Source of the DNA: Arthrobacter citreus
Lineage (GTDB): Bacteria; Actinomycetota; Actinomycetes; Actinomycetales; Micrococcaceae
DNA: 64,000 nt
Reading direction: 5' to 3'
Assembly (NCBI RefSeq): GCF_038405225.1
Contig: NZ_CP151657.1
Span: forward strand, 1,612,001-1,676,000
Positions within the stretch are counted from its first letter, which is position 1; every line of letters starts with the position of its first letter. Below the pieces are notes generated by a model. It was not told the origin of the DNA. It did no database searches and saw only the letters and a program-made list of their open reading frames with translations. Shown piece by piece: positions 6,411 through 38,839 of the stretch. Made by a program: the position numbers and the translations under genes.

Positions 6411-6775
6411 CCCCACATGCTGGCACTGCAGCTGCCCATCCGCTACTTGTGACGCCGTGTCTCCGTTCACACAGTTAATACGGCCTGGGCGGGGTCCAGC
6501 TCGCATACACCGGCATTATTGCGCCAATCCTGCGCCAACCTTGAGCATTAACCGCATCCGGCCCGGGCAGAGTGTCATCCTGGCGGGAACTAGAGACACC
6601 CGCCGCATGGCCGTGCACTCAGGGAGACCCGGGTGCGCAGCCCCGGGGAGCTTTCGATTTGAGACCACCGGAGGCTTCCCGGAATCCCCAGAAAGGCGAA
6701 GGGCCGCTGCGCAAGCAGCGGCCCTTCGTCGTCTTAATACCCCGTCACCGGCACGCCGGTGAGGAATTGTCCCGG
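6411..6775. other. Gene-free stretch between the BASS transporter and the YhgE-like gene
   Basis: This 365-base stretch has no convincing coding frame on either strand. It holds the upstream region of the BASS gene, a small GGCGGG/CCCGCC hairpin (arms 6582-6587 and 6599-6604) and the strong terminator hairpin at 6697-6728. I compared the hairpin-rich part by eye with TPP, SAM and glycine riboswitch cores and saw no match. Confidence 0.5.
6697..6728 (-). terminator. Terminator-like hairpin downstream of the YhgE-like gene
   Basis: A perfect 14-bp stem (CGAAGGGCCGCTGC pairing with its complement) closes a GCAA loop at 6711-6714. On the minus strand it lies 48 bases beyond the stop codon of the YhgE/SNG1-like gene and is followed by a short CCTTTC tract, so the U-run is weak but the stem is very stable. 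Confidence 0.7.
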
Positions 6776-8959
6776 CTAGACCGAAACAGCCGCTTTCCCG
6801 GCGGCCTCAACCGCGGGCCCGGCGGCAGGCTCGTCCACCGGATGCGGCTCGGTGCGCGGAGGCTTCACCCGGTCAATGATGACCAGGAGCGCCAGCGACA
6901 GCGCACCCCAAATGCCCAGGGTCAGCAGATGCGATCCAACGGTGTCGCCGCCGAAGTACAGAATGGAACGGATGGATTCCACGGCCGCGGGCATCGGCAG
7001 GACTTCGTGCAGGAAGCGGAAGATCTCCGGTTCCATGTAGATGGACATCGCGGCACCGGAAGCCGGGACGCCCAGGAACATCAGGAGGCCAATCACCGGC
7101 AGGATGGCCAGCATGCCCATAAACCGCTCAAAGACCGCGGTGAACATGGCCACACAGAACACCGCGACCGCGCCGACGCCGAGGAGTGGCCAGAAATGCC
7201 CGTCGATGGCACCGACAAACACATCGGCAATCACCCAGAGGAAGGCCGAGATGCCGACGGCCCAGGCGGCAACAATCGGGATCAGCCTGCGCAGCGGACG
7301 GCTGGCCGGAGCTGCGGTGGAACCCACCACAATGATCATGAAGCCGGCCATAATCCACCCCATGGCCAGGTACATGGTGGCCATGCCCATGGAGTCGTCG
7401 TCGCGCAGCGGGGCAACATCCTCAGCCGTCAGTTCCACCTGCTGCCCGCCGGCAACCTGGCCGAACACCGAGTTCACCACCTGCTGCTGACTCATGCCGG
7501 CGGCTTCATTGCTGATCAGAACTGCCGTGGGATTCCCGGCGGACGGCAGCACGAAGGCGGCAACAACCGTACGGTCGCGAACATCCTCCCGTGCCTCATC
7601 TGCGGAGTCCATCGCCCGCAGATCGAAGAGTCCGGACATGTTCTCCTCAAGCCCGTCCACTGCCTGCTCTGCCTGCTCAACCGTGGTGCCGACCACGGCG
7701 ACAGGCATGTCGCGCGGAGCCGGCTGGTACATCGCACCCAGCATGAACGAGAGCATCATCGTAACCATGGCCAGCGGGAAACCGGCCAGCGCGGCGTACC
7801 GCCAGCGGCGGCGCTTGGGCCGCGGCCCGCCGTGAAGCGAGGCCACGTTGATGGCCAGCGGGGCGGCGTCGGGCTTGCGGTGCCGCTTCAGGGCGTCAAG
7901 GCCCAGGGTGAGCAAGAGCGCCGCCGCGGCACCGATGGCCAGCACGAGCAGGTGCCCGCCAACACCGTTTCCGTCAAAGAAGAGCACCGACCGCAGCGAC
8001 TCGCCGGTGGCGGCCGCGGGCAGGAAGCTGTGCAGCCACGCGTAGATCCCGGGCATCGTATGCACCGAGATGCTCATGTTGGAGGCCGGAACGCCCAGCA
8101 CCATCAGGAACAGCATGCCCACCAGAACGGCCATCGGTCCGAAGATGCGGGTCAGGAGCAGCTGGACGCTGCCGACGGCGAAAACCGCCAGAGCGCAAAT
8201 GCCCAGCACCGCGGCGGTGTGCCCCTGGACCACTCCCATGACGGGCCCGACGACGGTCCAGACCAGTGCTGCGATCAGCACCGACCAGCCGACCAGCAGC
8301 GGAACAAACCGCCGGAACCGCATCAGTTCCGGGGAGTTGGACAGGATCAGGCTCAGCGGCATGTAGCCGGCGAGCATCAGCGCGGTGGTCATGAACATGG
8401 CGCCCAACCCGGCCGCGTCATTGTCCGGCAGCGGGGCAAGGTCCTCCGGCTGCAGGGTTAGGCCCTGTGCGAGCACCTGCGGGGCCACCAGTGCGGTCAC
8501 CGCGCCGGACTGTGATGCGCCGGCGGCTCCCGCCGTGTACAAAGTGGCGGTGCCGTCTGCCAGTGAAACAGCTCCGGCAACCTCGCGGTCCAGCACCAGC
8601 TGGCGGGCTTCCGCAGCGGTCCCGACCACGCGGACGTCAACGGCGTCCCGGTCCGCGGCCTCGAAGGACTCGGCAAATCCGGAGGCCTGCTGGGCGTTTC
8701 CGGCAACGGCGATCGGCATGTTGTGCGGGGTCGGCGCATGCATGGCCGCCAGGTACCCGCCCACCAGCATGGAGACCATGAGCAGCGGCATGAGGAACAT
8801 GGCGACATAGCGGCCAATCTTCTCTGCCTTGGCCCGCTTCAGCGCGGCAGCTTCGGCGGCAGCGGCCAGATCGCTGCCAGTTGCGGCCGGCTCCCCGCCC
8901 TGGTCCGCCGGAGCGTCGCCCGGCGGATAGTCGGTGGACGTGGGGGAATTGTGACTCAA
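6776..8959 (-). CDS. YhgE/SNG1-like (DUF3533) membrane protein with two fused homologous halves
   Basis: The preferred start is TTG at 8959, with AGGAG 8-12 bases upstream, giving 727 residues. ATG-initiated extension to 9112 would run through the divergent regulatory region. The protein is an internal duplication. Residues about 45-380 and 383-727 repeat the same plan: a TM helix, an extracytoplasmic domain beginning PHNMPIAVAG / PRDMPVAVVG, an APLxDxDxxG segment, four to five TM helices with LGVPAS, and an ESIRS(I/V)L(Y/F)F segment before the last helix. Relatives resemble ABC-2-type permeases and are linked to export or resistance. Divergent transcription from a TetR regulator at 9111 suggests drug-inducible expression. 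Confidence 0.85.
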   Translation of the reverse strand: MSHNSPTSTDYPPGDAPADQGGEPAATGSDLAAAAEAAALKRAKAEKIGRYVAMFLMPLLMVSMLVGGYLAAMHAPTPHNMPIAVAGNAQQASGFAESFEAADRDAVDVRVVGTAAEARQLVLDREVAGAVSLADGTATLYTAGAAGASQSGAVTALVAPQVLAQGLTLQPEDLAPLPDNDAAGLGAMFMTTALMLAGYMPLSLILSNSPELMRFRRFVPLLVGWSVLIAALVWTVVGPVMGVVQGHTAAVLGICALAVFAVGSVQLLLTRIFGPMAVLVGMLFLMVLGVPASNMSISVHTMPGIYAWLHSFLPAAATGESLRSVLFFDGNGVGGHLLVLAIGAAAALLLTLGLDALKRHRKPDAAPLAINVASLHGGPRPKRRRWRYAALAGFPLAMVTMMLSFMLGAMYQPAPRDMPVAVVGTTVEQAEQAVDGLEENMSGLFDLRAMDSADEAREDVRDRTVVAAFVLPSAGNPTAVLISNEAAGMSQQQVVNSVFGQVAGGQQVELTAEDVAPLRDDDSMGMATMYLAMGWIMAGFMIIVVGSTAAPASRPLRRLIPIVAAWAVGISAFLWVIADVFVGAIDGHFWPLLGVGAVAVFCVAMFTAVFERFMGMLAILPVIGLLMFLGVPASGAAMSIYMEPEIFRFLHEVLPMPAAVESIRSILYFGGDTVGSHLLTLGIWGALSLALLVIIDRVKPPRTEPHPVDEPAAGPAVEAAGKAAVSV

Positions 8960-26672: not shown

Positions 26673-27446
26673 CTAAACCGACTCCATGGGCCTGGTAGCC
26701 ATGACGAGGAAACGCTGGCTGCGAACTTCGAACCCGCCGGTTTGGCCGATCTGCTCGTGAATGCGCCGGAGATGACGTCGGTGAATCGTGGCATCGAAAC
26801 CAGGTGCTTGCCACGGAACCGCACGCAACTGATATACGACAGCTCCCACATCAAGAAAACGTGTTGAGACCATTGCTTCGCTCACCTGGCAGTTGACGAA
26901 TCCTGCTCGGCTTAAGCTTTTTCGAAGGTCCAGAGCAGAGGCCGGCGCATTGGCGCTAATTGTTGCCGGGATCCCCAGCGCTTCGTTGAACTCGAGGTCG
27001 TTCAGTCCTCCAACCTGCTGCGTCAGCAGCACGCCCCCAGGGGTCAGCACCCGGCGGAACTCCTCAAGATTCAGGTAGCCGTGGCGGTTGAGGACCAGGT
27101 CGAAGGAGGCATCCCCGAGAGGCAAAAGTGCAGATGTGCGTTCTTTTACTTCTACGCCAAGGGGCTGGAGACGCTGCGTGCTGAGAGCAAAGTTCGGGTT
27201 GTAGGGCTCGACGGCCACACTCCCACGCCGGGGTTGAAGAGACTCGAAGATTTCTCCACCGCCAGTATCAATGTCGAGCGTTCGGTGTCCACGGGAGACT
27301 AAGCCCGATGCCATCTGTTGGTAGTTCCAGGGGAGAGCGTCTCCCACGGTACGACCCTTGAGGAAACTAAAGTCCCATCCTGCCAGTGGAACGGTGTTCG
27401 CTTCTTGCACGAGGTCATCAAAGGCATGGAGCGGTGATGCTGACAA
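26673..27446 (-). CDS. Class I SAM-dependent methyltransferase
   Basis: A 257-residue protein with the seven-strand methyltransferase pattern: TLDIDTGGGEIFESL (motif I, with aspartates in place of some usual residues) near residue 56, VAVEPYNPNF (motif II), LLPLGDASFDLVLNRHGYLN (motif IV) and EFRRVLTPGGVLLTQQVGG (motif post-IV). The substrate is unknown. The start is TTG at 27446 with AAGGGG about 8 bases upstream. Base composition is slightly lower in GC than the neighbourhood. Confidence 0.82.
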   Translation of the reverse strand: MSASPLHAFDDLVQEANTVPLAGWDFSFLKGRTVGDALPWNYQQMASGLVSRGHRTLDIDTGGGEIFESLQPRRGSVAVEPYNPNFALSTQRLQPLGVEVKERTSALLPLGDASFDLVLNRHGYLNLEEFRRVLTPGGVLLTQQVGGLNDLEFNEALGIPATISANAPASALDLRKSLSRAGFVNCQVSEAMVSTRFLDVGAVVYQLRAVPWQAPGFDATIHRRHLRRIHEQIGQTGGFEVRSQRFLVMATRPMESV

Positions 27447-27473
27447 GTGCGATCCCCTTCAAAGTTTGAGTCC

Positions 27474-27719
27474 TCAGCGGGACGCTCGGTGTAAGCGATT
27501 GATGCAGTACCCGAGCGCAACGAGACTGATCAGTGCCAAGAAGAAACTGCCTGGCCAGCCAAGGGCCGGTCCAGACACGCAAGATGAGACCGCTCCGGAT
27601 TCGGGTATGTAATCGACGCACAGCCCGGATTGAAGACCGTAATTCAGGGCGTTCAACAAAACGATCAGACCGCAGATCAAGACCCAGGCCTTCTTGGATC
27701 GGGGCGCAGTGTTGGCCAT
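27474..27719 (-). CDS. Small membrane protein, two TM segments
   Basis: An 81-residue protein with hydrophobic segments at about residues 10-30 and 52-74 separated by an extracytoplasmic loop carrying two cysteines, which could form a disulfide. The family is not recognised. It lies 27 bases upstream of the methyltransferase gene on the same strand and may be co-transcribed. Confidence 0.5.
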   Translation of the reverse strand: MANTAPRSKKAWVLICGLIVLLNALNYGLQSGLCVDYIPESGAVSSCVSGPALGWPGSFFLALISLVALGYCINRLHRASR

Positions 27720-27747
27720 GGGCGAAGCCTATGCGCTGGAGGGTGCT

Positions 27748-29088
27748 TTAGCCCGCGTTCAGGCGTTCCTCGCGTTTGCGTCCCGCCCGGGCAGCGAGGA
27801 ACAACAGGGATCCAACCACGATGTAGGCCGCGGCGCCGAGCCAGATGATGCCGGTCTGCTGGGAGAGGAGCGCGATGCTCGCAATGATCGCGAGGATTGG
27901 CATGATTCGCGGGGCGCTGAAGTGGTCATGGTCCACTTTGTCCTTTTTGAGGACGAGGACGCTGACGTTTGCGGACAGGAACACCAGTAGCAGCAGCAGC
28001 ACGGTGGTTTCGGCCAATGTGGCGACATTTCCCACGAGGGTGAGGACGATCGTCAGTCCGGCAACAACAAGAATGGAGACCCAGGGGGTGCGGCGGCCCG
28101 GCAGCACGCGGGCGAAGGCCCGAGGGAGCAGTTCTGCTTCCGCCAATCCGTAGCCGACACGGCTGGCCATAACCATGAACAGCAGTGCTCCGTTGGCAAT
28201 GGCAATCAGGGCGATGATGCTGAATACTCCAGGTGGGATTCCGACGCCACTGGCGGCGACGACGTCGAGCAGGGGTCCCGTGGACTCGGCCAGTTCGGCC
28301 GGGGGCATCACGATGACCGCGCCCAAAGCAATGAGGAGATAAACGACGCCGGCGGTGCAGATGGCGCCGAAAAGTGCGCGGGGGTAGGCCTTGGAGGGGT
28401 TCCGCACTTCCTCGGCCATGTTTGCCGCCGCCTCGAAGCCGAGGAAGGAGAAAAAAGCGACGATCGATGCCGCGAAGGCGCCTTGGAGAGGCGGTACATC
28501 CGGTGCGAACTCGAGGAGCCGGGAAGGTTCCCCGTTGCCGGAGGTAAAGACAATGGCGGCGACGACGATCACAATGACGAGACCGGTTACCTCAATGATG
28601 GAAGCGACGAGGTTCGCGGCGAGGGACTCCTTGACGCCGCGAAGGTTGATCAGGGTCAGCAGGATGATGAATGCGACCGCTGCGGGGGCTGCCGGCACAT
28701 CGATGAGCGCTGTGAGGTAATCGCCCGCGAAGGCGTTCGCGAGGGCAGCGGCTGTGGTGATTCCCGAGGCCATCATCAGGAAGCCCACGAGGAAGGACAC
28801 ATAGGGGATGCCAAAAGCCCGGTCGGCGTAGCGCGCGGCTCCCCCGGCGTGCGGGTACTTGGTGATCAGTTCCGCGTAAGTCGCGGCAGTGAGCAGCGCA
28901 ACCACCAGCGCGATCAGCAGGGGTATCCAAATTGCGCCGCCGACGTCGGCCGCCATGGTCCCCACGAGGGTGTAGATGCCGGCGCCGAGGGTGTCGCCCA
29001 CGATAAACGCGAACAGCAGCGGCACACCGATGGCCCGCTTCAGTCCGGTTTGTGTTTTTGATGTGGCCGTGCCGGGATCTTTCGTCAT
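27748..29088 (-). CDS. APC-family amino acid permease
   Basis: A 446-residue transporter with twelve hydrophobic segments. TM1 carries GVPLLFAFIVGDTLGAGIYT, the glycine-rich substrate-binding break of the APC superfamily; SFLGFEAAANMAEEVRNP is the conserved TM6-TM7 region. The substrate is probably an amino acid or polyamine. The ATG at 29088 (MTKDPGT) is chosen; a GTG 60 bases upstream keeps the frame open but lacks a ribosome-binding site. It appears monocistronic. Confidence 0.87.
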   Translation of the reverse strand: MTKDPGTATSKTQTGLKRAIGVPLLFAFIVGDTLGAGIYTLVGTMAADVGGAIWIPLLIALVVALLTAATYAELITKYPHAGGAARYADRAFGIPYVSFLVGFLMMASGITTAAALANAFAGDYLTALIDVPAAPAAVAFIILLTLINLRGVKESLAANLVASIIEVTGLVIVIVVAAIVFTSGNGEPSRLLEFAPDVPPLQGAFAASIVAFFSFLGFEAAANMAEEVRNPSKAYPRALFGAICTAGVVYLLIALGAVIVMPPAELAESTGPLLDVVAASGVGIPPGVFSIIALIAIANGALLFMVMASRVGYGLAEAELLPRAFARVLPGRRTPWVSILVVAGLTIVLTLVGNVATLAETTVLLLLLVFLSANVSVLVLKKDKVDHDHFSAPRIMPILAIIASIALLSQQTGIIWLGAAAYIVVGSLLFLAARAGRKREERLNAG

Positions 29089-29202
29089 TGGGCTATTGGA
29101 TTCCGTTTGCTGTCCCTGCGCAAGCACTTGGGCGAAATCGGGTAGCACAAAGGTGCTGGGCCAGACAGGCGAAGATCCTCCTGGGAGATCCTTAGCGAGG
29201 AG

Positions 29203-29418
29203 TTATGGGGCGACCTGCTTCTCCAAAGTGCCTGCTTCCGCGGTCCCGCGCCGGTACTCGAGCAGGGAGCACGTGAGGAAAGCAGAGGCAGCCAGGACCA
29301 TGACGACGACCGACAGCGGCCCCCACCATTCCGGGAGCTTCTCAGCGAGGAACATCACGCCCACACCGAAGACGATCGAGACCCCGAACACGTAGCGGCT
29401 CCATGCAGTCATAGCCAC
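29203..29418 (-). CDS. Small membrane protein, two TM segments
   Basis: A 71-residue protein with two hydrophobic helices (residues about 6-26 and 33-53) and a charged C-terminus. The family is not recognised. It is divergent from the GNAT gene starting at 29453; an internal ATG at 29412 is an alternative start. Confidence 0.5.
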   Translation of the reverse strand: MAMTAWSRYVFGVSIVFGVGVMFLAEKLPEWWGPLSVVVMVLAASAFLTCSLLEYRRGTAEAGTLEKQVAP

Positions 29419-29452
29419 AGCCTAGCTGTTGCAGGAGATAGCCTGAGCCACT

Positions 29453-30016
29453 ATGAGAGCCACTGACCAGGAAGTTGAATACGTCCGGTTTGAGCATGGT
29501 GCCCCGGACGAGATTTGGGCTGAGATCGTCAGTCTCTTCGTCTCGAGCTTCGCAGCTCCTCCTTACAATGAAGCGCCGGACGCACTCCAGAGTATTGCTC
29601 AATGGGGTCCCGCCGCACTTGCCAGTCCTGGCGGCCGGCTTATCGCGGCGAGACACGACGGACGCGTGATCGGCTTTGCGTTATCGCAGAGGCTTGACCA
29701 GGACAGCTCCTGGCTGCGGCGGCTCGACGTTATGGTGCCAACACTGGAAGGGGTAATCGCGCCGTCGACAACCGTTATTGTCCAGGAACTTGCTGTCGCC
29801 GAGAGCTTTCGGAGCCGTGGGGTGGCCAAACAGTGCATCCGGGAGCTCCTCTCGGGCCGCGTCGAACAGGATGCCGTCCTGGGGGTTTTCGGCCAGGCAT
29901 CCCGGGTGCGGGAAATGTATGCACACTGGGGTTTTTCGGAACTCGGCACCTCCCCCCTTTACGGCGGAACCGTGACCCTGCATGCCTTGCACCACAAACT
30001 TCCCTGGCCCGCCTAG
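29453..30016 (+). CDS. GNAT-family N-acetyltransferase
   Basis: A 187-residue acetyltransferase. The acetyl-CoA motif is VQELAVAESFRSRGVAKQCI near residue 105-125, and a MYAHWGFSELGTS segment near the C-terminus is the usual fold end. The substrate is unknown. It converges with the MFS gene, with 9 bases between stop codons. Confidence 0.8.
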   Translation: MRATDQEVEYVRFEHGAPDEIWAEIVSLFVSSFAAPPYNEAPDALQSIAQWGPAALASPGGRLIAARHDGRVIGFALSQRLDQDSSWLRRLDVMVPTLEGVIAPSTTVIVQELAVAESFRSRGVAKQCIRELLSGRVEQDAVLGVFGQASRVREMYAHWGFSELGTSPLYGGTVTLHALHHKLPWPA

Positions 30017-30025
30017 CCACCCCGT

Positions 30026-31279
30026 TTATTCGTGGTCCACCTCGGCGGCACTGATGGCCTTGTCCGTGAGGATGGGCATCATCAGCAACAGGGCGAGGGT
30101 GAGCACTCCCATAATGCCAAACATGGCTTGAAGGCCCAGCCATTGTGCCAGCAGTCCCCCGGCGGCTGCTCCGATGGGCATGGTTCCCCAGGCTAGAAGA
30201 CGGTAGGCACTGTTGACTCTGCCCAGTAGCCGGTTTGGGGCTATGCGTTGGCGCAGCGACACTGTGATGACATTCCACAACACAATCAGTACCCCTCCCA
30301 CGAGGAGCACGAGTCCCAGTACGTAGGGGTTGTTGGTCAGTGCCGGCGCCCCGACGAACAGTGCGCAGCCCAGGATGCTCAGCGCCAGGGATTTGGACCG
30401 GCCCAGTTTCGCCTCCACTGATTCAGAGATGAACGAGCCGATAAAGGCACCGACGGCGGAGGTCGTCAGCAGTATGCCGAAACCAACTTCGGATAGCCCC
30501 ATTTCTGAACCAGGCCCGACGGCGAACAGAACGAGGACAGCGAAGGCAGCGCTGGACGCAAAGTTAACGACGCCGGTCATGACTGCGAGTGTGCGAAGAA
30601 TTTTCTGATTCCAGAGAAACCGCAGGCCCTCCTTGATGTCGAACCGCAGTGTCGTCTTCTGTTCTCGTTCCACTCGAAAGCCGCCGGGCAACAGGAGCAG
30701 GCCGCCCACCGCTGCCAGCCACAGCGCCGCCGGGACAGCAAAACCCGCTGCTACACCCACACCTATCAGCAGCCCACCGAGCGGAGGGCCGATGAACTGA
30801 TTGGCTGTGAGTTCAGCTGCGTAGAGCCGTCCATTGGCGCGTGAAAGCTGACCTTTGTTCACGATTTGGGGCAGGATCGATTGCGCCGAGGTGTCGTACA
30901 GGGTTTCCGCCACCCCCACCGTCAAAGCGACAACATACAGGGCCCAGATGGACCCGAGGTCGAGAAGGATCACCGCTATCAGCAAAGCGGGCAGGACAGC
31001 CCGGCTCAGGTTGGCCCACAGCATGAGCTTCCGTCGATCAACCCGGTCTGCCAGTGCTCCGGCGGTCAATGCGAAGAAAAGCCACGGAAGGGTTGCGGCA
31101 ACGGTGAGTCCGGCGATCAGCGTCGGAGACTGCGTGAGCTGAATCGCCATGAGCGGTAACGCAATCTTAAACACCCCATCCGCGAGGTTGGAGAGCCCCG
31201 TTGACGTCCAAAGCTTCCAGTAGGAAGCACCGAGAGGTAAGCGGTCCGTCGTTCTCACGTGCGGGGCGTTAGGTTTCAT
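30026..31279 (-). CDS. MFS transporter (MFS_3 / enterobactin-exporter-like)
   Basis: A 417-residue protein with twelve TM segments. The TM2-TM3 loop reads GALADRVDRRKLMLW, the MFS signature, and the second half has LLGRVNSAYRLLAWGTMPIG, typical of the MFS_3 group that includes siderophore and drug exporters. The ATG at 31279 (MKPNAPHV) has GAGGG 6-10 bases upstream. The upstream region carries TTGAAC and TATAAA-like elements around 31295-31310, a plausible promoter. It is separated from zur by 115 bases. Confidence 0.86.
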   Translation of the reverse strand: MKPNAPHVRTTDRLPLGASYWKLWTSTGLSNLADGVFKIALPLMAIQLTQSPTLIAGLTVAATLPWLFFALTAGALADRVDRRKLMLWANLSRAVLPALLIAVILLDLGSIWALYVVALTVGVAETLYDTSAQSILPQIVNKGQLSRANGRLYAAELTANQFIGPPLGGLLIGVGVAAGFAVPAALWLAAVGGLLLLPGGFRVEREQKTTLRFDIKEGLRFLWNQKILRTLAVMTGVVNFASSAAFAVLVLFAVGPGSEMGLSEVGFGILLTTSAVGAFIGSFISESVEAKLGRSKSLALSILGCALFVGAPALTNNPYVLGLVLLVGGVLIVLWNVITVSLRQRIAPNRLLGRVNSAYRLLAWGTMPIGAAAGGLLAQWLGLQAMFGIMGVLTLALLLMMPILTDKAISAAEVDHE

Positions 31280-31394
31280 CCCTGAACCCTCGCACAGCAA
31301 TTTATAAAGTTCAAGGGGATTGAGTTTTCTAAATACCCCCTCGTGTGACGCCTAACGACGCTACCGGGAGACCTTCCAGGCGACAGGTTTGCAA

Positions 31395-31784
31395 CTAGTG
31401 CGACTCGCAATCCGCGCAGGTTCCGGCTATCTCAGTGACATGGGAAATATTCTTGAAGCCGCGGTCCCGGCTGAGCTCAGCAGCCCATATATCAATATCG
31501 ACTGCGGCTACCCCCAGCTCCTCCGCTTTCCCACAGATGCGGCAGATCAAGTGGCCGTGATGGTCCGTTCGACCGCACCGGCGGTAGCGGGTTTCGCCGT
31601 CCGGCGAGTGGAATACGTCAACATCGCCGCTCTCAACGAACTGCTGCAGCGCGCGGTAGACCGTGGAAAGCGCCAGCGGTTCACCCTGCCTGGACAGGGT
31701 TGCGTGAAGCTCTCGGGCGCACTGGAAACGGCCACTACTTTCCAGCAGTTCCATCAGTGCTGTGCGCCGCCGGGTATTGCGCAT
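31395..31784 (-). CDS. zur: Zinc uptake regulator of the Fur family
   Basis: A 129-residue Fur-family repressor, co-transcribed behind a zinc transporter. The DNA-binding domain contains STVYRALQQFVESGDVDV. Structural zinc ligands are the two cysteine pairs CRIC and CADC, and the HHGH segment at residues 74-77 belongs to the regulatory metal site. It would repress the zinc-starvation genes when zinc is sufficient by binding the boxes at 35864-35878 and 37782-37796. Its first 50 bases overlap the 3' end of the permease gene, and AGGAAGGA precedes the ATG. Confidence 0.88.
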   Translation of the reverse strand: MRNTRRRTALMELLESSGRFQCARELHATLSRQGEPLALSTVYRALQQFVESGDVDVFHSPDGETRYRRCGRTDHHGHLICRICGKAEELGVAAVDIDIWAAELSRDRGFKNISHVTEIAGTCADCESH

Positions 31785-32706
31785 CGCTCATCCTTCCTTC
31801 CTCGATAGGTGGGCTTCCTCCCGTTCCGTGTGGCTTCGCGCGGCTGTGGAAGGGCCGAAGGACAGGCCGCAACACTGCGAGAGCCGCGTAGAGCGCAATC
31901 GAGATCATGGTGATCGTGGCGCCTGGGGACAGTGGGTGGAAGTAAGTGATGGATAGTCCGATAACGCAGACGGTCCCGCCGATACCCATGGCAAATACCA
32001 TCGTGTGCCGGAATGAGGTCGCGATCAGTTGCGCGACTGCGACCGGTACGATCATGAGCGCCGACACCAGGAGCACTCCCACCACCCGCATGGAAATTGC
32101 GACAGTCAGCGCTGCAGTGACAGCGACAAGAATGTTCAGGGCCCGGACGGGGAGCCCGCTTGCCCGGGCGAATTCCTCATCGTGGCAGAGGGCGAAGAGT
32201 GCCGGCCGAAGTCCCAGACCGACGCCCAGGATGAGCGCTGAAAGGCCCACGGTCAACCAGACATCGAGCTGATCCACCGTGGAAATGGAGCCGAAGAGGT
32301 ACCCGGTGAGGTTGGCTGAGGTCCCCCCGGCAAGGCCGATGATGAGCACACCGCCGGCGATTCCGCCGTAGAACAAAAGGGCAAGGGCCACGTCGGCACT
32401 GCTTTTGCCCTTCTCTCGGACGTATTCGATCATGAGAGCTCCAGCGACGGAGGCGCAGATCGCCCCAGGTATGGCCCAAGCGTCCACCGATGCGCTGCCC
32501 GCGGCCGCGCCGACCAGCCAGCCCATTGCGACCCCTACGAGCGCAACATGCCCAATGCCATCGCCGAGGAGGGCCAGCTTGCGTTGCACCAGGTAGGTCC
32601 CAATCACCGGTGCCGTTGTTCCGACCAGCACAGCAATTATCAGCGCGCGTTGCATGAGCGGGCTTGCGAGCATGGCCACGAACGTATCCCAGAATTCCGC
32701 GCTCAT
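31735..32706 (-). CDS. aztB: Zinc ABC transporter permease, AztB type
   Basis: A 323-residue inner-membrane protein with about eight to nine TM segments of the ABC-3 family: LLGDGIGHVALVGVAMG near residue 47 and RASGLPVRALNILVAV at the coupling helix. It forms the channel of the zinc importer with the ATPase encoded immediately upstream (ATGA overlap of 4 bases) and the binding protein AztC. The C-terminal 30 residues are hydrophilic and lie in the region overlapping zur. Confidence 0.9.
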   Translation of the reverse strand: MSAEFWDTFVAMLASPLMQRALIIAVLVGTTAPVIGTYLVQRKLALLGDGIGHVALVGVAMGWLVGAAAGSASVDAWAIPGAICASVAGALMIEYVREKGKSSADVALALLFYGGIAGGVLIIGLAGGTSANLTGYLFGSISTVDQLDVWLTVGLSALILGVGLGLRPALFALCHDEEFARASGLPVRALNILVAVTAALTVAISMRVVGVLLVSALMIVPVAVAQLIATSFRHTMVFAMGIGGTVCVIGLSITYFHPLSPGATITMISIALYAALAVLRPVLRPFHSRAKPHGTGGSPPIEEGRMSDAQYPAAHSTDGTAGK

Positions 32707-33407
32707 TGATGCATCCCTGCCAGCGGGCCGTCCTGGAGTACTTTCCCCTGCTCAAGGACCACGGCACGCTCAATCATGCTGCCCAGTTCGGCCAGCTCGT
32801 GCAGTACCACCACGATGGTTGTTCCGGCGCCGCGTAGTCGTTGCAGACTGGCAGCCAGCGCAGCTTTGGACGCCCGATCGATGCCTGATAGTGGTTCATC
32901 AACGATCAGCAGGCCCGGCTCACGGATCAGGGCCCTGGCGATCAGGACACGCTGCTGCTGGCCGCCCGAGAACAAGTGCACGCTCTCGTCTGCACGCTCG
33001 GCAAGACCCACCTCCGCGAGGGCATTCCGCACTCGGTCCCGGCTCCCCGGTCCCGGGCGCAGGCGCCGACCGCTGAGCAACCCGGACATGACGACCTCTT
33101 CGGCCGTTGCTGACATCGAAGGACTTGAGTTGACGCGCTGAGGCACGTATCCGATACGTGACCACGGGACCGTGCTCCGGGCCGAGACATCGGAGCCGTA
33201 CAGGACCGCCCTCCCGGAGCTGAGCGGGACCAAACCCATCAGCGCCTTCACCAAGGTGGTCTTACCCGAACCATTAGCGCCCAGGAGTGCCACTGTCTCA
33301 CCGCGGGCTACCTGCAGATTAATTCCGCTGAGGATTGCACCAGCCCCGAGGTCGACAGAAAGATCTTCGAGGAGGACCGCTGGTGCAGCCGTAGTCTGAC
33401 TATTCAC
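32703..33407 (-). CDS. aztA: Zinc ABC transporter ATP-binding protein, AztA type
   Basis: A 234-residue ABC ATPase with Walker A GANGSGKTT (residues about 43-51), signature LFSGGQQQR, Walker B LLIVDEP and the switch histidine in VVLHELAEL. It powers zinc import through AztB. The gene overlaps aztC upstream by 8 bases and aztB downstream by 4, so the three are one translationally coupled unit. Confidence 0.92.
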   Translation of the reverse strand: MNSQTTAAPAVLLEDLSVDLGAGAILSGINLQVARGETVALLGANGSGKTTLVKALMGLVPLSSGRAVLYGSDVSARSTVPWSRIGYVPQRVNSSPSMSATAEEVVMSGLLSGRRLRPGPGSRDRVRNALAEVGLAERADESVHLFSGGQQQRVLIARALIREPGLLIVDEPLSGIDRASKAALAASLQRLRGAGTTIVVVLHELAELGSMIERAVVLEQGKVLQDGPLAGMHQ

Positions 33408-34326
33408 AGCCGAGCGCCTCCTGTAAGGCGGCCAGGTTGGAGCGCATCACCGAGAGGTAGTCGGTATTGGGATCAGCCAAGGTTTCCAGCGGATCCAGCA
33501 CCGCGGTCCGGATCCCCAGGTCAGCGGCTATGGTTTCGGCGACCTTAGGGTTTACCAGCGATTCGGTAAAGATCGTTGAGACATCTTCACCTTCGATGAC
33601 CCGCTGGATCTTCGCCACTCGCGCAGGGGCAGGCTCGGATTCGGGATCGATTCCCGCAATGCCCATCTGCTGCAGGCCGTACCGTGTGACCAGATATCCG
33701 TAGGCTTCGTGCGAGACGACAATGGTGTCCCGCTCACACGTGGCCAGACCCGCGGCATAGTCTTCATCCAGGGCTGAAAGTTCCTGAATGAGTTGGTCCG
33801 CGTTGGCTTCGTACGTCGCCGCGTTGTCGGGGTCAATCTCGCTGAGGGTCACTTCAACTTGCTCAGCAACTGCCGCCAACCGGGTGGGGTCAAGCCAGAA
33901 ATGAGGATCAGCCGAGGCGTTACCCGCCCCTTCGCTGAGACTGGATCCGTCGGCGTTCTGCAGATTCACTGATTCGGCAACATCGATGGCGTGGTCCGGA
34001 TTGGTCTCTTCGATTGCCTCATCAACGGCAGGCTGGAAGCCGGACGAATACACCACCACCGACGCTTCAGCCAGATCGCTCACCATGGCCGGGGAGAGCT
34101 CAAGGTTGTGCGGCTCCGCGCCCGGAGGCGTTACCGAGCCGACGTCGACGGCGTCCCCTCCGACGGTCTGCATGACAAATTGCAGGGGGTAAAAAGAAGC
34201 TAACGCTTTCACAGCTGTTTCACTGCCGCTGCCGTCAGCGGTGCCCCCGCTCGAGCCGCAGGCGGAAAGAGCCAAGGTAAGTACTGCAGCGGGTAGAACT
34301 AGTGAGCGACGCAGTAAGGCCGTCAT
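33400..34326 (-). CDS. aztC: Zinc ABC transporter substrate-binding lipoprotein, AztC type
   Basis: A 308-residue cluster A-I binding protein. The signal peptide ends in LSAC, a lipobox, so it is anchored outside the membrane. Zinc ligands of the family are visible as His in GAEPHNLEL, His in ADPHFWLDP, His in VSHEAYGY and an acidic residue near the C-terminus. The loop that is His-rich in ZnuA proteins is short and lacks histidines here, as in AztC, where AztD delivers zinc. The ATG at 34326 is chosen because GAGG lies 6 bases upstream; an ATG at 34338 has no such site. Confidence 0.88.
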   Translation of the reverse strand: MTALLRRSLVLPAAVLTLALSACGSSGGTADGSGSETAVKALASFYPLQFVMQTVGGDAVDVGSVTPPGAEPHNLELSPAMVSDLAEASVVVYSSGFQPAVDEAIEETNPDHAIDVAESVNLQNADGSSLSEGAGNASADPHFWLDPTRLAAVAEQVEVTLSEIDPDNAATYEANADQLIQELSALDEDYAAGLATCERDTIVVSHEAYGYLVTRYGLQQMGIAGIDPESEPAPARVAKIQRVIEGEDVSTIFTESLVNPKVAETIAADLGIRTAVLDPLETLADPNTDYLSVMRSNLAALQEALGCE

Positions 34327-34357
34327 TGGTATCCTCATCGTGATAGTAAAAGCGGAA

Positions 34358-34451: not shown

Positions 34452-35849
34452 CTATCCCTTGTGCTCTTCGTTCTCGTGATCGTGACCCTCATGGCCTTCG
34501 TGGTCCCCGTGATCGTGACCCTCGTGGTCCTCGTGGCGTGATGACTCCGGGTCGCCGGTGACAACAACGAGCTCGGTCGGTGTCTCAGGCAGGTCGAAGC
34601 TATCCAGGACAGTGCCGGCTTCAATGTCGATGACGTGGAGCTTCTGGGCAGCGGCATCAGTCACGTAGGCGAATCCGTCCGCGCCGACCTTGACGATCGG
34701 GCCCGGTGACTGCCATTCGTCCGGCTCTTCCCACGCGTCGACTACATCGATCTCGTGAATCATTTCGCCGGTCTCTTCATCGAGGACGTTGAGCTGTCCG
34801 TCGTAGGTCAGGACCAGGGCTTCACCGTCGGCGCCGCGTGCGAGTGAGCGGAACCAGTAGGCGGACCCGAGATCCACGGTGGTGACCGAGTCAGAGAGGG
34901 TATCAAACAGGCCGATCCTCGTGGGGCGTTCCTTCTCAGCATCGGCGTCCACCTTGTAGTCGCCGAGGATGATCGATGATGCGTGGTGACCGAACAGGTT
35001 GCCCGAGCGCTGGTAGTCCTCTTCGACAGTGACCTTGTGGAACTCGCCGTCCCGGAAGACGACAGGTCCGTTCTCGCAGCCGAGCGCGACCACGTCGCCC
35101 TCAGCCGTGGGTGCGGCGGCGGCTTCCCCGTGGACGCCGGGGCAGTCCGTGGTTTCGGCGATCACATCACCTTCCGGGGACTGCACCTGAACGGTGTTGC
35201 GGGCGTCAGCAGTGCCTTGCGTGAGGAGAAGATCCCCGCTGGCCAGAGGAACGGCCACACCGTGGTGAGCGCTGTCGGTGGAGTATTCCTCGATCTCGTC
35301 GTCGCTGATTTCGCCGTCGTTGATGGCTTCGGAATCCATCACCGTGATAGCGCCGGTTCCGTCAGAGAATAGGGCGGTTTTGCCGTCATGGACCACTACG
35401 TGGCCAGGCTCGGGAGCCTCGACGGTTTCCTCGGTGAGGGTCGGTGCGCTCTCGAAGTAGTGGTTGTGGTCCCCATGACCCTGAACAATCAGTCCCGAAT
35501 CGAAGAGGCTGAATCCCCCGGTGGAGCTGACCATGACGTGCCGGCCGTCTCCGGCGTTGTTGACGCGCAGGAAGCCGTCCATCTCGGTGGTGGCAAGGAC
35601 CTCACCGGATTCGGTGTCAACAGTCATCATGCCGCCGTCGTACGTCAGAACGGCGCGGGGCGCCAGCGCCGCAACCTCAGTTTGACCTTCGCCTTCGGTG
35701 TGATGCCCGTCGGCTGCCGCGGAGCCGGAGCCCGAAGCCGACGGTGTGGAGCCGCTCGAATCCCCCGAAGCAGTTGAGGAACATGCGGATATAAGAAGTG
35801 CCGCGGCAATGGCCGTGGACAGTGCAAGTGGTGGTTTAGAAATCGACAT
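34452..35849 (-). CDS. aztD: Zinc metallochaperone AztD
   Basis: A 465-residue exported lipoprotein (signal peptide ending ISAC). It is a beta-propeller-like protein with repeated LYDGxxTVxD-type strands (LTYDGGMMTVDTESGEVLAT, VLTYDGQLNVLDEETGEM) and interior histidines HGDHNHYF, DSAHHGVAV and FGHHASS, as in AztD, which hands zinc to AztC. The C-terminal 27 residues are extremely rich in His and acidic residues (HEDHEGHDHGDHEGHEGHDH and on), a flexible zinc-collecting tail. It is the first gene of the azt transcript and has a Zur-box candidate 15 bases before the ATG. Confidence 0.9.
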   Translation of the reverse strand: MSISKPPLALSTAIAAALLISACSSTASGDSSGSTPSASGSGSAAADGHHTEGEGQTEVAALAPRAVLTYDGGMMTVDTESGEVLATTEMDGFLRVNNAGDGRHVMVSSTGGFSLFDSGLIVQGHGDHNHYFESAPTLTEETVEAPEPGHVVVHDGKTALFSDGTGAITVMDSEAINDGEISDDEIEEYSTDSAHHGVAVPLASGDLLLTQGTADARNTVQVQSPEGDVIAETTDCPGVHGEAAAAPTAEGDVVALGCENGPVVFRDGEFHKVTVEEDYQRSGNLFGHHASSIILGDYKVDADAEKERPTRIGLFDTLSDSVTTVDLGSAYWFRSLARGADGEALVLTYDGQLNVLDEETGEMIHEIDVVDAWEEPDEWQSPGPIVKVGADGFAYVTDAAAQKLHVIDIEAGTVLDSFDLPETPTELVVVTGDPESSRHEDHEGHDHGDHEGHEGHDHENEEHKG

Positions 35850-35863
35850 GGCTACAACCTAAA

Positions 35864-35878
35864 TGCAAATGGATCTCA
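35864..35878 (-). promoter_or_regulatory. Candidate Zur box upstream of aztD
   Basis: TGCAAATGGATCTCA on the plus strand matches the box at 37782-37796 (TGAGAATGGTTCTCA in the opposite orientation) at 12 of 15 positions and keeps the TGNNAATG...TCA frame of actinobacterial Zur sites. It ends 15 bases before the aztD start codon, the same placement as the other box. Confidence 0.6.
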
Positions 35879-35975
35879 TTAGCAACTACGTGACGCATTG
35901 GTGACACCCGCTGCTGCGGAAGGCCCTGCAGCACGGCAGCCATCCGTCCATGACGGGCACCGCGGCGCCAATGAC

Positions 35976-36026
35976 GATGGCCACTACGGCGAGCACCAGA
36001 TCTTCTCGCTCGCCGTAGTGGCCATC
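35976..36026 (-). terminator. Perfect 19-bp stem-loop downstream of the ferredoxin-like gene
   Basis: GATGGCCACTACGGCGAGC (35976-35994) pairs perfectly with 36008-36026 around a 13-base loop. It lies 68 bases beyond the stop of the ferredoxin-like gene and about 100 bases before the aztD Zur box. There is no U-tract on either strand, so it may be a factor-dependent terminator, a 3'-end stabiliser or a regulatory structure. Confidence 0.55.
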
Positions 36027-36094
36027 AATGCCACCCCCCTGAGGACCATCACGGGGACAGGCTGCTCACCTCCGCGCATTACGGGGTCGACACG

Positions 36095-36472
36095 TTATGA
36101 CCCCGCCGGTGTCAGGGTGATGGGCGGTCCGTACCCGATCAGAGCGTCATGGAGGGTCTCCGGCAGCGTGTTGGCTTCCTTCGCATCGGGGCGCCAGTGT
36201 TCGACCCAGTGACCCAGGTCCTGCAGGCGCCCTTCACCGTCGAGCCCGCCCAACCAGACGGACCGGCCGGTGGACCCAGCCCTTTCAGCACGAATCGCGA
36301 CAGCCCCAACAGCGCCGTGAGCGCACTGCTGCAAGCAGGGTGCAGAGATCAGGACCGCGCCCGGTGACCGCGCCACGGCCCCCGGCAGTCCGCCGTCGTC
36401 CAGGGACCGGGTTAGCGCAGCACAGCGGTGGCCGGTGCACATCGCAACGACAACACCCGCGGACCCGTTCAT
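36095..36472 (-). CDS. (2Fe-2S) ferredoxin-like protein of the thioredoxin-fold type
   Basis: A 125-residue soluble protein. Cysteines are spaced as C-x4-C (MCTGHRCAALTR, residues 12-17) and C-x3-C (APCLQQCAHGAV, near residue 46-50), the order used by thioredoxin-like [2Fe-2S] ferredoxins. The segment VAIRAERAG then corresponds to the strand after the cluster loop. The usual first pair is CxxGR-type; here it is CTGHRC. The gene follows the rpmJ and COG0523 genes on the same strand and is likely under the same Zur box. GGGGGAAGAGG precedes the ATG, partly inside a hairpin. Its role in zinc limitation is not known. Confidence 0.65.
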   Translation of the reverse strand: MNGSAGVVVAMCTGHRCAALTRSLDDGGLPGAVARSPGAVLISAPCLQQCAHGAVGAVAIRAERAGSTGRSVWLGGLDGEGRLQDLGHWVEHWRPDAKEANTLPETLHDALIGYGPPITLTPAGS

Positions 36473-36477
36473 TGCCT

Positions 36478-36515
36478 CTTCCCCCGATCTTCACCCGGAG
36501 CACGGCCGGGGGAAG
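36478..36515 (-). promoter_or_regulatory. Hairpin covering the ribosome-binding site of the ferredoxin-like gene
   Basis: CTTCCCCCG (36478-36486) can pair with CGGGGGAAG (36507-36515). On the minus strand the arm nearest the gene reads CGGGGGAAG and contains the ribosome-binding site, only 5 bases before the ATG at 36472. The structure could limit translation of the ferredoxin-like protein relative to L36. Confidence 0.4.
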
Positions 36516-36566
36516 TGCCGGAGCGGGTTTGGCTGGTCCGGGGTTGTCTCCTCATCGCGGCCGCCC

Positions 36567-36689
36567 TTAACCCTGGCGGGCCTTCATTCGAGGGTTCTTC
36601 TTGTTGATGACGAAGGTCTTCCCTCGACGACGCACAACCTGGGCGCCGGGAATCTTCTTCAGGGACCGCAGTGAGTTACGTACTTTCAT
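36567..36689 (-). CDS. rpmJ: Ribosomal protein bL36, type B (cysteine-free paralogue)
   Basis: A 40-residue protein, [20 protein letters not shown] and on, ending [11 protein letters not shown]. It matches the longer type B form of L36, which lacks the three cysteines and one histidine that bind zinc in the 37-residue type A protein. In many bacteria such cysteine-free copies are made under zinc starvation so that the zinc-containing version can be replaced in ribosomes. AAGGAG lies 5 bases before the ATG. It sits between the COG0523 gene (21-base gap) and the ferredoxin-like gene, downstream of a Zur box. Confidence 0.95.
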
Positions 36690-36710
36690 GATGCTCCTTA
36701 TGAGTTGTTG

Positions 36711-37769
36711 TTAGTGGTGCTCGGGGGCAAAGGGGGCTGGGAAGGTGATGCGTGCGGATTCCAGTTCCTCATCAGTCAGGGCGCAGGCATCGAGTAGACC
36801 AGCAATGTCGTCGTCGTCGAGGTCATCACCGGTAAGGGCCAAATGGGTGCCCCGGCACAGTTCGTCTTGCGGGGGTTCCGCACCCCACGCTCCGCCGTCC
36901 CCCAAAGAAATACGGGGGCCGACCCCGTGCACAGCCACCCGCAAGTCCAACATTCCCGCGATCCAGGCGCTGCCGCGAACAAAGCAACACCCCACAGAGA
37001 TGGCACCTAAGGCAGTTTGGAACCGCTCCGGATGTAACGGGCGGCTGACTCGATGTTCGACTGTGCGGAACGGCTGCGACGACAGGGTCGGCGTGAAAAC
37101 CGCTCCGGGAAGGTTCCGGTTACGCGCCTGTTCGCAGCTGTGTGAGCCTAGTGCTGCGGCGTCAAGACCGTCACTGGGCACCAGGCGGGCATGTGGAGCC
37201 AACTCGCGCAGGAGTTGCTGACCGCGCGCCGACAAGGCTGCGTCATCACATATCAACTCGCTGCTGGTTGTCAGGATCGTATCCGCGAAAAGCAGCTCTC
37301 CCATCAGGAATTCACCTGGCGTTCGTGAATCCTCCGGCACTGCCGTGTAACCCGCACCAAACAACGTGTGGTGATCCCACAACTGGTCCTCAATATCCTC
37401 GGGCCTTGCCGCGAGAGCCACTGTATCCACGGTGAACACGCCCGGGGCGACCGCGCGTAATCCGTCGATGGCGTTTTCCGCAGTGGTACCCGGCGGAAGA
37501 CCAACAATGGCTCTGGTCTCCCCCGCGGCCGCCAGACGCAAAAGGGCCGGGGCGAGGTCGAAGCGGACGGTGCAGCTTAAGCAGCCATGCTCCAGTACCG
37601 TCGACTCACGCTCGATGAGCTGATCGTCAGAATGAATCCGGCGCATCACCACACCGCCGTCCAATAGATCATGGAGAACCACCGGAACATGAGGGAACTC
37701 ATCCGCCACCAGGGACGCGGCAGTGTTCCGGCTAAGCACGTCAAGGGACGTGAGGATAATGAGATGCAT
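36711..37769 (-). CDS. COG0523 (CobW/YeiR-like) family protein lacking GTPase motifs
   Basis: A 352-residue protein with the COG0523 layout. The N-terminal strand is LIILTSLDVLSRNTAAS where GTPases have GxxGxGKT, so the P-loop is lost. The metal motif, normally CxCC, reads GCLSC (near residue 62). The NKxD guanine-specificity motif is replaced by TTSSEL. The C-terminal CobW_C-like domain is present with RPLHPERF and RGSAWIAG. COG0523 proteins act as zinc metallochaperones fuelled by GTP; this one can at most bind metal or a partner. It begins 12 bases from a Zur box and is followed by rpmJ, so it is the first gene of a Zur-controlled transcript. Confidence 0.8.
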   Translation of the reverse strand: MHLIILTSLDVLSRNTAASLVADEFPHVPVVLHDLLDGGVVMRRIHSDDQLIERESTVLEHGCLSCTVRFDLAPALLRLAAAGETRAIVGLPPGTTAENAIDGLRAVAPGVFTVDTVALAARPEDIEDQLWDHHTLFGAGYTAVPEDSRTPGEFLMGELLFADTILTTSSELICDDAALSARGQQLLRELAPHARLVPSDGLDAAALGSHSCEQARNRNLPGAVFTPTLSSQPFRTVEHRVSRPLHPERFQTALGAISVGCCFVRGSAWIAGMLDLRVAVHGVGPRISLGDGGAWGAEPPQDELCRGTHLALTGDDLDDDDIAGLLDACALTDEELESARITFPAPFAPEHH

Positions 37770-37775
37770 GCCCTC

Positions 37776-37796
37776 ACTATATGAGAACCATTCTCA
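37776..37796 (-). promoter_or_regulatory. Zur box and -10 element upstream of the COG0523 gene
   Basis: TGAGAATGGTTCTCA (minus strand, 37796-37782) is a near-perfect palindrome: 6-bp arms TGAGAA and TTCTCA around TGG. It agrees with the Zur-box pattern of actinobacteria (TGAAAATGATTTTCA-like). It directly abuts TATAGT (37781-37776), a good -10 element, followed by GAGGG and the ATG at 37769. Repressor bound here would block RNA polymerase. Confidence 0.75.
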
Positions 37797-37806
37797 AAAG
37801 CCAAGG

Positions 37807-37923
37807 ATGGGCTCTACCCGCGACGCCCTTGCCGAATCAGGGCAGGACGAAAGCATCTGGATGTTGCTTCGAAGCTGGCTGCCCGATACAGCCGAGACCA
37901 GTGAGCAGGAGCTTACGGAATGA
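37807..37923 (+). other. Possible 38-residue ORF on the other side of the Zur box
   Basis: ATG at 37807 opens a frame reading MGSTRDALAESGQDESIWML and ending SEQELTE at 37923. It starts 10 bases beyond the Zur box on the opposite strand, with AAGG immediately before the ATG, and its last 11 bases overlap the 3' end of panE in a convergent way. The composition is protein-like, but no family is recognised and no -10 element is visible on this strand, so it may be spurious. Confidence 0.25.
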
Positions 37924-38839
37924 GTGGGGCGTCCAGAATGCTGAGCGCACGATAGATCGTGCTGTTGATGGGAACCGGCACGCCGTGCTCGGCTGCGATC
38001 CGGACGACCGCGCCGTTTTGTTCCTCGAGTTCGGAGGGACGTCCTGCGATGAGATCGCGCTGCATGGATGCCGTGCTGTCGGGGGTGAATGCGTCGTACT
38101 GGCCCATGGTGAAGTCCACATCGTCATGGGTGAGGTTTGCGCCGGCAGCGGCCCCGACGGCGGCGACTTCACGCATGGCGTCCTCGACCAGCGCCCGGGT
38201 GGGCGGGTGGCTGCGGGTTTCGCCGACGTTCTTGCGGCAGAGTGCGCCAACGCCTCCGTAGGAGGTGATGAGCATGAACTTCCGCCACAGGTCCGTGGTG
38301 ATATCACCCGAGATCCGAGCCGTAATACCGGCGGAGGTTAGTGCGTCAGCGAGCTCCCGGGTGCGGGCGGTGGGTGTGCCGTCGAGTTCGCCGAGGGTGA
38401 CGGCGGGTTGGCCCCCGACATGGTGCACATGACCTGGTTCGACCAGGTAAGAGATGATCATGCACAGCCCGCCTAAGGCATGCCCGGGACCGGCGGCGGC
38501 AGCGATCTGTTCGGCCGCCGTGACCCCGTTTTGCAGGGGCAGGACCGGCGTGTCCGAGCCCAGAAGTGGCAGGGCTGCCGCCAGGACCTCTTCCACGGAG
38601 CCCGCCTTGCAGGCGACGATGACGGCATCGCACGGCCCAATGACGGAAGCATCCGTGGATACACCTGCGACAGGAATCAGCTCGTCCCGCCCCTCACCGG
38701 TGGTGAGACGGATTCCGTTCTGCCTTAGGGGTGCCAGGTGGCGGGGTGTCACGAGGAGATGGACGTCATGACCTGCCTGTGACAGGGCAGCGGCGAAGTA
38801 TGCTCCGACGCCTCCCGCTCCGATGATCCCGATTTTCAT
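37913..38839 (-). CDS. 2-dehydropantoate 2-reductase family protein (ApbA/PanE)
   Basis: A 308-residue oxidoreductase. The N-terminal NADP-binding motif is KIGIIGAGGVGAYFA (GxGxxG at residues 7-12), the linker reads PLQNGV and the C-terminal helical domain has DLWRKFMLITSYGGVGAL and IAGRPSELEEQNGAVV, typical of ketopantoate reductases where the lysine in WxK is catalytic. It would reduce 2-dehydropantoate to pantoate in pantothenate synthesis, but actinobacteria often carry several paralogues with other 2-oxoacid substrates, so the exact substrate is uncertain. It stands alone. Confidence 0.85.
   Translation of the reverse strand: MKIGIIGAGGVGAYFAAALSQAGHDVHLLVTPRHLAPLRQNGIRLTTGEGRDELIPVAGVSTDASVIGPCDAVIVACKAGSVEEVLAAALPLLGSDTPVLPLQNGVTAAEQIAAAAGPGHALGGLCMIISYLVEPGHVHHVGGQPAVTLGELDGTPTARTRELADALTSAGITARISGDITTDLWRKFMLITSYGGVGALCRKNVGETRSHPPTRALVEDAMREVAAVGAAAGANLTHDDVDFTMGQYDAFTPDSTASMQRDLIAGRPSELEEQNGAVVRIAAEHGVPVPINSTIYRALSILDAPLIP

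Follow-up and report, generated by a model that had tools for sequence, protein, structure and literature searches.

The locus considered here raises the question of what a protein laid out like a COG0523 GTPase can still do once its P-loop, CxCC and NKxD motifs are gone. The gene lies in a 64,000-nucleotide stretch of the genome of Arthrobacter citreus (NZ_CP151657.1, positions 1,612,001 to 1,676,000), referred to hereafter as the window, in which all coordinates are counted. A sequence-only reading had described its product as a Zur-regulated pseudo-GTPase that may serve a true COG0523 protein as metal-binding partner or as regulator. The gene and its diagnostic parts are the following:

36711..37769, minus strand: gene of an MRF-like P-loop-less COG0523 protein, 352 aa (open reading frame, CobW_C, NCBIfam MRF match below cut-off, tree)
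37719..37754, minus strand: lost Walker A position, residues 6-17, reading LTSLDVLSRNTA (alignment columns)
37572..37586, minus strand: GCLSC (residues 62-66) with the kept CxxC pair C63/C66 (alignment)
36783..37067, minus strand: CobW_C domain, residues 235-329 (Pfam PF07683, 8.8e-10, above cut-off)

The open reading frame is intact and begins with an ATG. As had been claimed, the Walker A position reads LTSLDVLSRNTA and the metal motif is GCLSC; in the alignment the latter differs from CxCC in that the middle cysteine is a serine and the outer cysteines alone are retained. The terminal columns of Walker A, which are 100% G, K and T in 22 P-loop COG0523 proteins, are occupied by S13, R14 and N15 in the window protein, the Walker B column (100% E in the same 22 proteins) by G90, and the K and D columns of NKxD (likewise 100%) by S169 and E171, so that the guanine-specificity motif is indeed gone. 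Of the cobW nucleotide-binding domain a mere trace is found by Pfam (0.056, 13.5 bits vs a cut-off of 20.7). With regard to the features that mark COG0523 membership, the protein thus lacks Walker A, CxCC, NKxD and the Walker B Glu and possesses CobW_C and the two-domain fold. Judged from its sequence, it appears to descend from the COG0523 GTPases as a pseudo-GTPase, with nucleotide binding probably lost and a cysteine pair kept, in agreement with the sequence-only reading on this point.

The COG0523 layout is borne out by the CobW_C match at 8.8e-10 and by the predicted structure. An AlphaFold model, built on a 35-row alignment, reached a pLDDT of 69, with residues 8-16 of the lost P-loop under 50, and its top structural match is YjiA (4ixm; Z 14.3, rmsd 5.7, 272 residues aligned, both domains), followed by the MeaB family, which matches residues 1-220 only (Z 10.6). 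A sequence search of the PDB with the window protein alone gave no match at E 1; the same search with the A2 profile, made from the alignment of relatives, gave YjiA as the sole match (E 8.7e-4). YjiA (PDB 1nij, 4ixm) therefore shares the two-domain fold with the window protein (Z 14.3), but it is a GTPase with CICC in the alignment, whereas the window protein has Ser for the middle Cys. According to the title of PDB entry 4ixn, C66 and C67 of YjiA were mutated there together with E37.

The loss of three motifs, together with the presence of the gene in 1/29 genomes of the genus (its own included; it is absent from all 28 congeners), could suggest a COG0523 gene in decay. The gene is carried by 9/59 genomes of the genus, family and order (own included), i.e., the window's own genome, G034 (another genus of the family, 43% identity) and seven of the order. 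The eight relatives from these genomes are all without P-loop and all with HxCxxC, and no orthologue with intact GTPase motifs, which would have spoken for simple decay, was met among them. A phylum-wide profile search gave a match in 42/296 genomes, P-loop proteins counted in. In a tree of 69 rows, 45 P-loop-less and 24 with P-loop, one branch (support 100/98.7) parts the 45 from the 24; the P-loop-less side includes the window, Mycobacterium, Rhodococcus, Tsukamurella, Nocardia, Streptomyces and other genomes, and the tree program flagged seven terminal branches as long and nine rows as atypical in composition. Since the two kinds lie on opposite sides of one branch, a single loss of the P-loop suffices for the pattern. 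C63 and C66 are present in 45/45 P-loop-less rows, as are D147, R149, P247, R249, G266 and G284, and H33 in 88% of them, at a position where Asn is invariant in the 22 P-loop rows. The motif losses are thus shared by the relatives, as the sequence-only reading had asked to be verified, and decay is rejected on the grounds of clade-wide losses and invariant outer cysteines; the intact reading frame, the eight residues invariant in 45/45 rows and an operator of the gene's own with an exact box (see below) likewise speak against it, so that decay is very improbable. Both the motif loss and the common descent with the mycobacterial MRFs, as opposed to the P-loop COG0523 proteins, are established by these data.

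Inside the P-loop-less side the window groups with its order-level relatives (98/85) and not with the mycobacterial MRFs, although the split of these relatives from the mycobacterial group is weak (87/63). The middle cysteine is kept in just seven P-loop-less rows, a Streptomyces-type group (CACC) of which one is named Streptomyces. These relatives (L015-L020 and L047) have no P-loop and a complete CACC, and they lie beside L31 and L33 genes. The Streptomyces type, without P-loop and with CxCC, looks like an intermediate stage, on a branching inside the P-loop-less side that is weak (87/63). As a separate observation, L037 (1246-2529) and L172 encode a COG0523 protein with CLCC and an unusual P-loop, GFLRAGKS, which is the sister of L040 in the tree and was counted as P-loop despite missing the strict pattern GxxGxGK[ST]. 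In L150 (G132; 5441-8194) a type B L31 gene separates a P-loop and a P-loop-less COG0523 gene that are arranged in tandem, a candidate picture of an ancestral duplication.

To which kind of protein the window protein belongs is indicated by its best-scoring families. Among the NCBIfam models it scores best with NF047431 (1.6e-26, 93.2 bits), named "ribosome hibernation factor-recruiting GTPase MRF", and second best with ZigA (9.6e-12); at 93.2 bits vs an equivalog cut-off of 375, the protein falls far below the level required by NF047431 and, on this curated standard, does not count as an MRF equivalog. MRF ranks above ZigA for the window protein, for L004, L039 and L042 and for 10/10 further P-loop-less proteins, and ZigA above MRF for 10/10 proteins from the P-loop side. 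These 10 P-loop proteins score 107-217 bits on the MRF model, all of them more than the window protein, and it is therefore the ranking of MRF and ZigA that counts and not the score.

The MRF kind and its motif losses have already been described, and the window protein is a further member. Rv0106, now MRF, was reported as P-loop-less with CxxC (Haas et al., 2009). In the passages available from a 2026 review (PMC13418864), MRF (MPY recruitment factor; MSMEG_6069, Rv0106) is described as helping the hibernation factor MPY to bind ribosomes of the zinc-free type, as having a CXXC motif and, in its zinc-bound form, as being degraded through Clp. Excerpts of another paper (PMC7174638) report that MSMEG_6069 of M. 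smegmatis is strongly induced when zinc is chelated or zur is deleted, and that it has a predicted Zur box. The window protein resembles MRF (MSMEG_6069; Rv0106; NF047431) in the absence of the P-loop, in CxxC in place of CxCC, in CobW_C, in the Zur-type box, in the adjoining zinc-free ribosomal-protein genes and in its side of the tree. It differs from it in sequence, being 25-29% identical to the 34 mycobacterial and nocardial proteins compared and reaching 93 of the 375 bits needed, and in its surroundings, because the window gene adjoins L36 only whereas most mycobacterial loci hold L28, L33, S14, S18 and L31 genes. With the Zur-regulated COG0523 GTPases of the ZigA/YciC type it has in common COG0523 descent, predicted zinc control and a cysteine motif at the same place, but those have P-loop, CxCC and NKxD, all three of which it has lost. 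Sequence comparison, then, makes the window protein a genuine and conserved pseudo-GTPase that belongs with the MRF kind, although far out in the range which that kind spans.

The adjoining gene fits this kinship:

36567..36689, minus strand: rpmJ2, type B cysteine-free ribosomal protein L36, 40 aa (open reading frame; NCBIfam NF002021, 74.9 bits, cut-off 70)

It lies 21 bp downstream of the mrf-like gene and, given this spacing, the two probably form one operon. The sequence-only reading mentioned neither the adjoining L36 gene nor a link to MRF. In records of Rhodococcus rhodochrous and Tsukamurella, the MRF-type gene stands between rpmB-rpmG-rpsN(-rpsR) and type B L31. Neighbours within 3 kb were searched by tblastn in the fetched loci, with the ribosomal proteins of Rhodococcus and Tsukamurella and the window L36 as queries. 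The comparison-genome cases come from 40 regions picked by hand among the top matches, and the Mycobacteriales set comes from a profile scan with the narrow alignment A3 (best 80 of 225 relatives), which gives an unfair picture of other orders. P-loop-less genes were found within 3 kb of a Cys-poor ribosomal-protein gene in 21/23 cases in the comparison genomes, 4/4 on plasmids and 80/81 in Mycobacteriales, the exceptions being L137 and L134 in the comparison genomes, the latter on a contig that stops at the gene, and L113 in the Mycobacteriales set. For P-loop genes the corresponding counts are 7/20, 0/3 (two of the three with flanks of only 2 kb) and 6/6, and the last six all share a locus with a P-loop-less gene. 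Fisher's p for P-loop-less vs P-loop linkage is 0.0002, a guide only with regions chosen by hand. Within the aligned segments, the matched neighbours of the P-loop-less genes are without Cys in 86/86 cases for S14, 95/97 for L33, 91/92 for L31, 81/82 for S18, 7/8 for L36 and 16/16 for L32, and L28 has at most one Cys in 96/98. The G034 relative shows the same reduction to a pair with L36 (92.5% identical), none of the other queried ribosomal proteins being found within 15 kb. Type B L36 occurs in 2/29 genomes of the genus, the second match being weak (61% over 31 residues). Linkage to Cys-poor ribosomal-protein genes is thus established for the P-loop-less kind in the loci fetched.

The control of the pair and its relation to the zinc-uptake genes are seen in the following features:

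37782..37796, plus strand: palindromic Zur-type operator TGAGAACCATTCTCA, 12 bp upstream of the ATG of the mrf-like gene (sequence match)
35864..35878, minus strand: diverged operator copy before aztD, TGAGATCCATTTGCA (two mismatches; stretch conserved in the four congeners compared)
34452..35849, minus strand: gene of an AztD-like zinc metallochaperone that leads the zinc-uptake cluster (NCBIfam AztD, 2.4e-108, 362 bits, cut-off 400)
33400..34338, minus strand: znuA (Pfam PF01297, 6.9e-79)
32703..33407, minus strand: znuC (Pfam PF00005, 1e-31)
31735..32706, minus strand: znuB (Pfam PF00950, 1.1e-53)
31395..31784, minus strand: Fur-family regulator (Pfam PF01475, 4.1e-22)

The operator sequence is likewise established: TGAGAACCATTCTCA is the sole exact match to TGANAANNNTTNTCA in the window (mean of shuffles 0.00) and the sole exact site in the 3.88-Mb genome, where the backward control pattern also occurs once. 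An exact box stands in front of the G034 relative too (L131). A box with at most one mismatch was found in the ~200 bp upstream of 14/26 P-loop-less genes from comparison genomes and plasmids (L134, with its upstream region cut off, left out) and of 78/81 from Mycobacteriales, compared with 6/540 and 53/1620 random stretches of the same loci, respectively. P-loop genes also carry it (8/22 in comparison genomes or plasmids, 5/6 in Mycobacteriales), and the box therefore does not set the P-loop-less kind apart. No box stands upstream of the seven Streptomyces-type genes, perhaps owing to a position inside an operon. Copies with two mismatches number 10 in the window against 7.2 expected, which is chance level; the copy before aztD is nevertheless believed because its surroundings are conserved in congeners, two of the four compared reading TGAGAACCATTTGCA at this place. 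By their sequences, the operators of the mrf-rpmJ2 pair and of the zinc-uptake cluster are probably of one type. The Fur-family protein exceeds no NCBIfam cut-off, and iron-regulator models rank above Zur for it; its gene is taken to be that of Zur from its position after znuB. Of the earlier description as Zur-regulated, the Zur-type box has thus held, as sequence, while the naming of the regulator follows from gene position. In the parts consulted of a 2010 study (PMC2823685), ribosomal-protein paralogues including RpmJ (L36) are placed in predicted Zur regulons of several actinobacteria.

The AztD-like gene is found in 12/29 genomes of the genus, that of the window included. In one congener (G013, L188; 94% complete) the zinc cluster is ~92% identical in DNA, and the locus lacks window positions 35886-38565, which hold mrf, rpmJ2 and the 3' portion of a putative ketopantoate-reductase-like gene next to them, as well as 27160-31827, with the Fur-family gene within. 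A deletion in G013 seems likelier than an insertion in the window, because a remnant of the next gene remains in G013.

The vicinity of the znuACB/AztD genes with the same operator type, the COG0523 descent and the outer cysteines present in 45/45 P-loop-less rows would also be expected if the protein stored or delivered zinc without using nucleotide and took no part in hibernation; C63/C66 would then take zinc, from a source such as the displaced zinc L36, and hand it to apo-proteins. NCBIfam, however, ranks MRF over ZigA for the window protein, the linkage goes to genes of zinc-free ribosomal proteins, and the mycobacterial MRF, as presented in portions of the review cited above (PMC13418864), acts on MPY; this explanation is hence regarded as somewhat unlikely.

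The proposal that the protein is the partner of a COG0523 GTPase with intact motifs, or regulates one, finds some ground in other genomes, since six P-loop genes lie in the flanks of 80 Mycobacteriales loci (best 80 of 225), with both kinds within a few kb, and L150 has them side by side. In the window genome it is rejected: this single-contig genome has no match to PF02492 (which covers CobW, HypB and UreG) at E 0.001, a search positive in 13/14 control genomes, and no CobW_C above the cut-off besides that of the window gene. Such a role is accordingly highly improbable in this organism, unless a COG0523 partner escaped both profiles; the MRF kinship points to the ribosome.

The ribosomal proteins of the genome were searched for the four families L36, L28, L33 and S14. 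L36 has two copies above the cut-off, one with three Cys and the type B copy of the window, whereas a single copy above the cut-off was found for each of L28, L33 and S14; these three lie together in one cluster and contain one, no and no Cys, respectively. Given these single copies, L36 is the only one of the four families that could be switched. The MRF described so far belongs to ribosomes in which several proteins are exchanged, and that two copies exist here for L36 alone, of the four families covered, counts against the MRF-like reading, as do the low identity and bit score and the grouping with order-level relatives. The genome also encodes a long HPF, in which both domains are present.

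We therefore favour, with a probability of about 0.55, an MRF-like zinc-sensing pseudo-GTPase that would link zinc shortage to ribosome protection, its function being deduced by analogy with MRF; the figure is 0.55 rather than 0.6 because P-loop proteins outscore the window protein on the MRF model. With nucleotide binding probably lost, as the motifs suggest, this protein would work as a zinc-sensitive ribosome adaptor. When zinc falls, the Zur-type repressor would leave the operator and the mrf-rpmJ2 pair would be expressed, as the operator suggests; the cysteine-free L36 may then take the place of the three-Cys L36 encoded elsewhere in the genome. The pseudo-GTPase would sense the remaining zinc through C63/C66, perhaps with H33, and in its zinc-free form might bring the long HPF to ribosomes for hibernation, as in the case of the mycobacterial MRF.

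The special feature of this case is the reduction to two genes in a genome whose L28, L33 and S14 are Cys-poor and present once each. The literature search, with most subscription papers outside it, found nothing in print on a two-gene form with L36 alone and, by title or passage among the papers listed, no work on MRF outside mycobacteria. A stripped zinc-to-ribosome switch, in which the only copies of L28, L33 and S14 are Cys-poor and the Zur-controlled module has shrunk to the pseudo-GTPase and L36, is a rather doubtful extension of the MRF-like reading; if true, L36 would be a sufficient mark for an MRF-like protein to recognise ribosomes for hibernation.

For the family as a whole, the MRF kind extends beyond mycobacteria to Streptomyces and several other families of the class. 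The loss of the P-loop fits a single event in the tree, and P-loop-less proteins should not carry a GTPase annotation, as they do in the NCBIfam name "GTPase MRF" and in the copies of Rhodococcus and Tsukamurella annotated as "GTP-binding protein". With its two genes, the form found in the window is simple enough to serve for finding out which feature of the ribosome MRF recognises.
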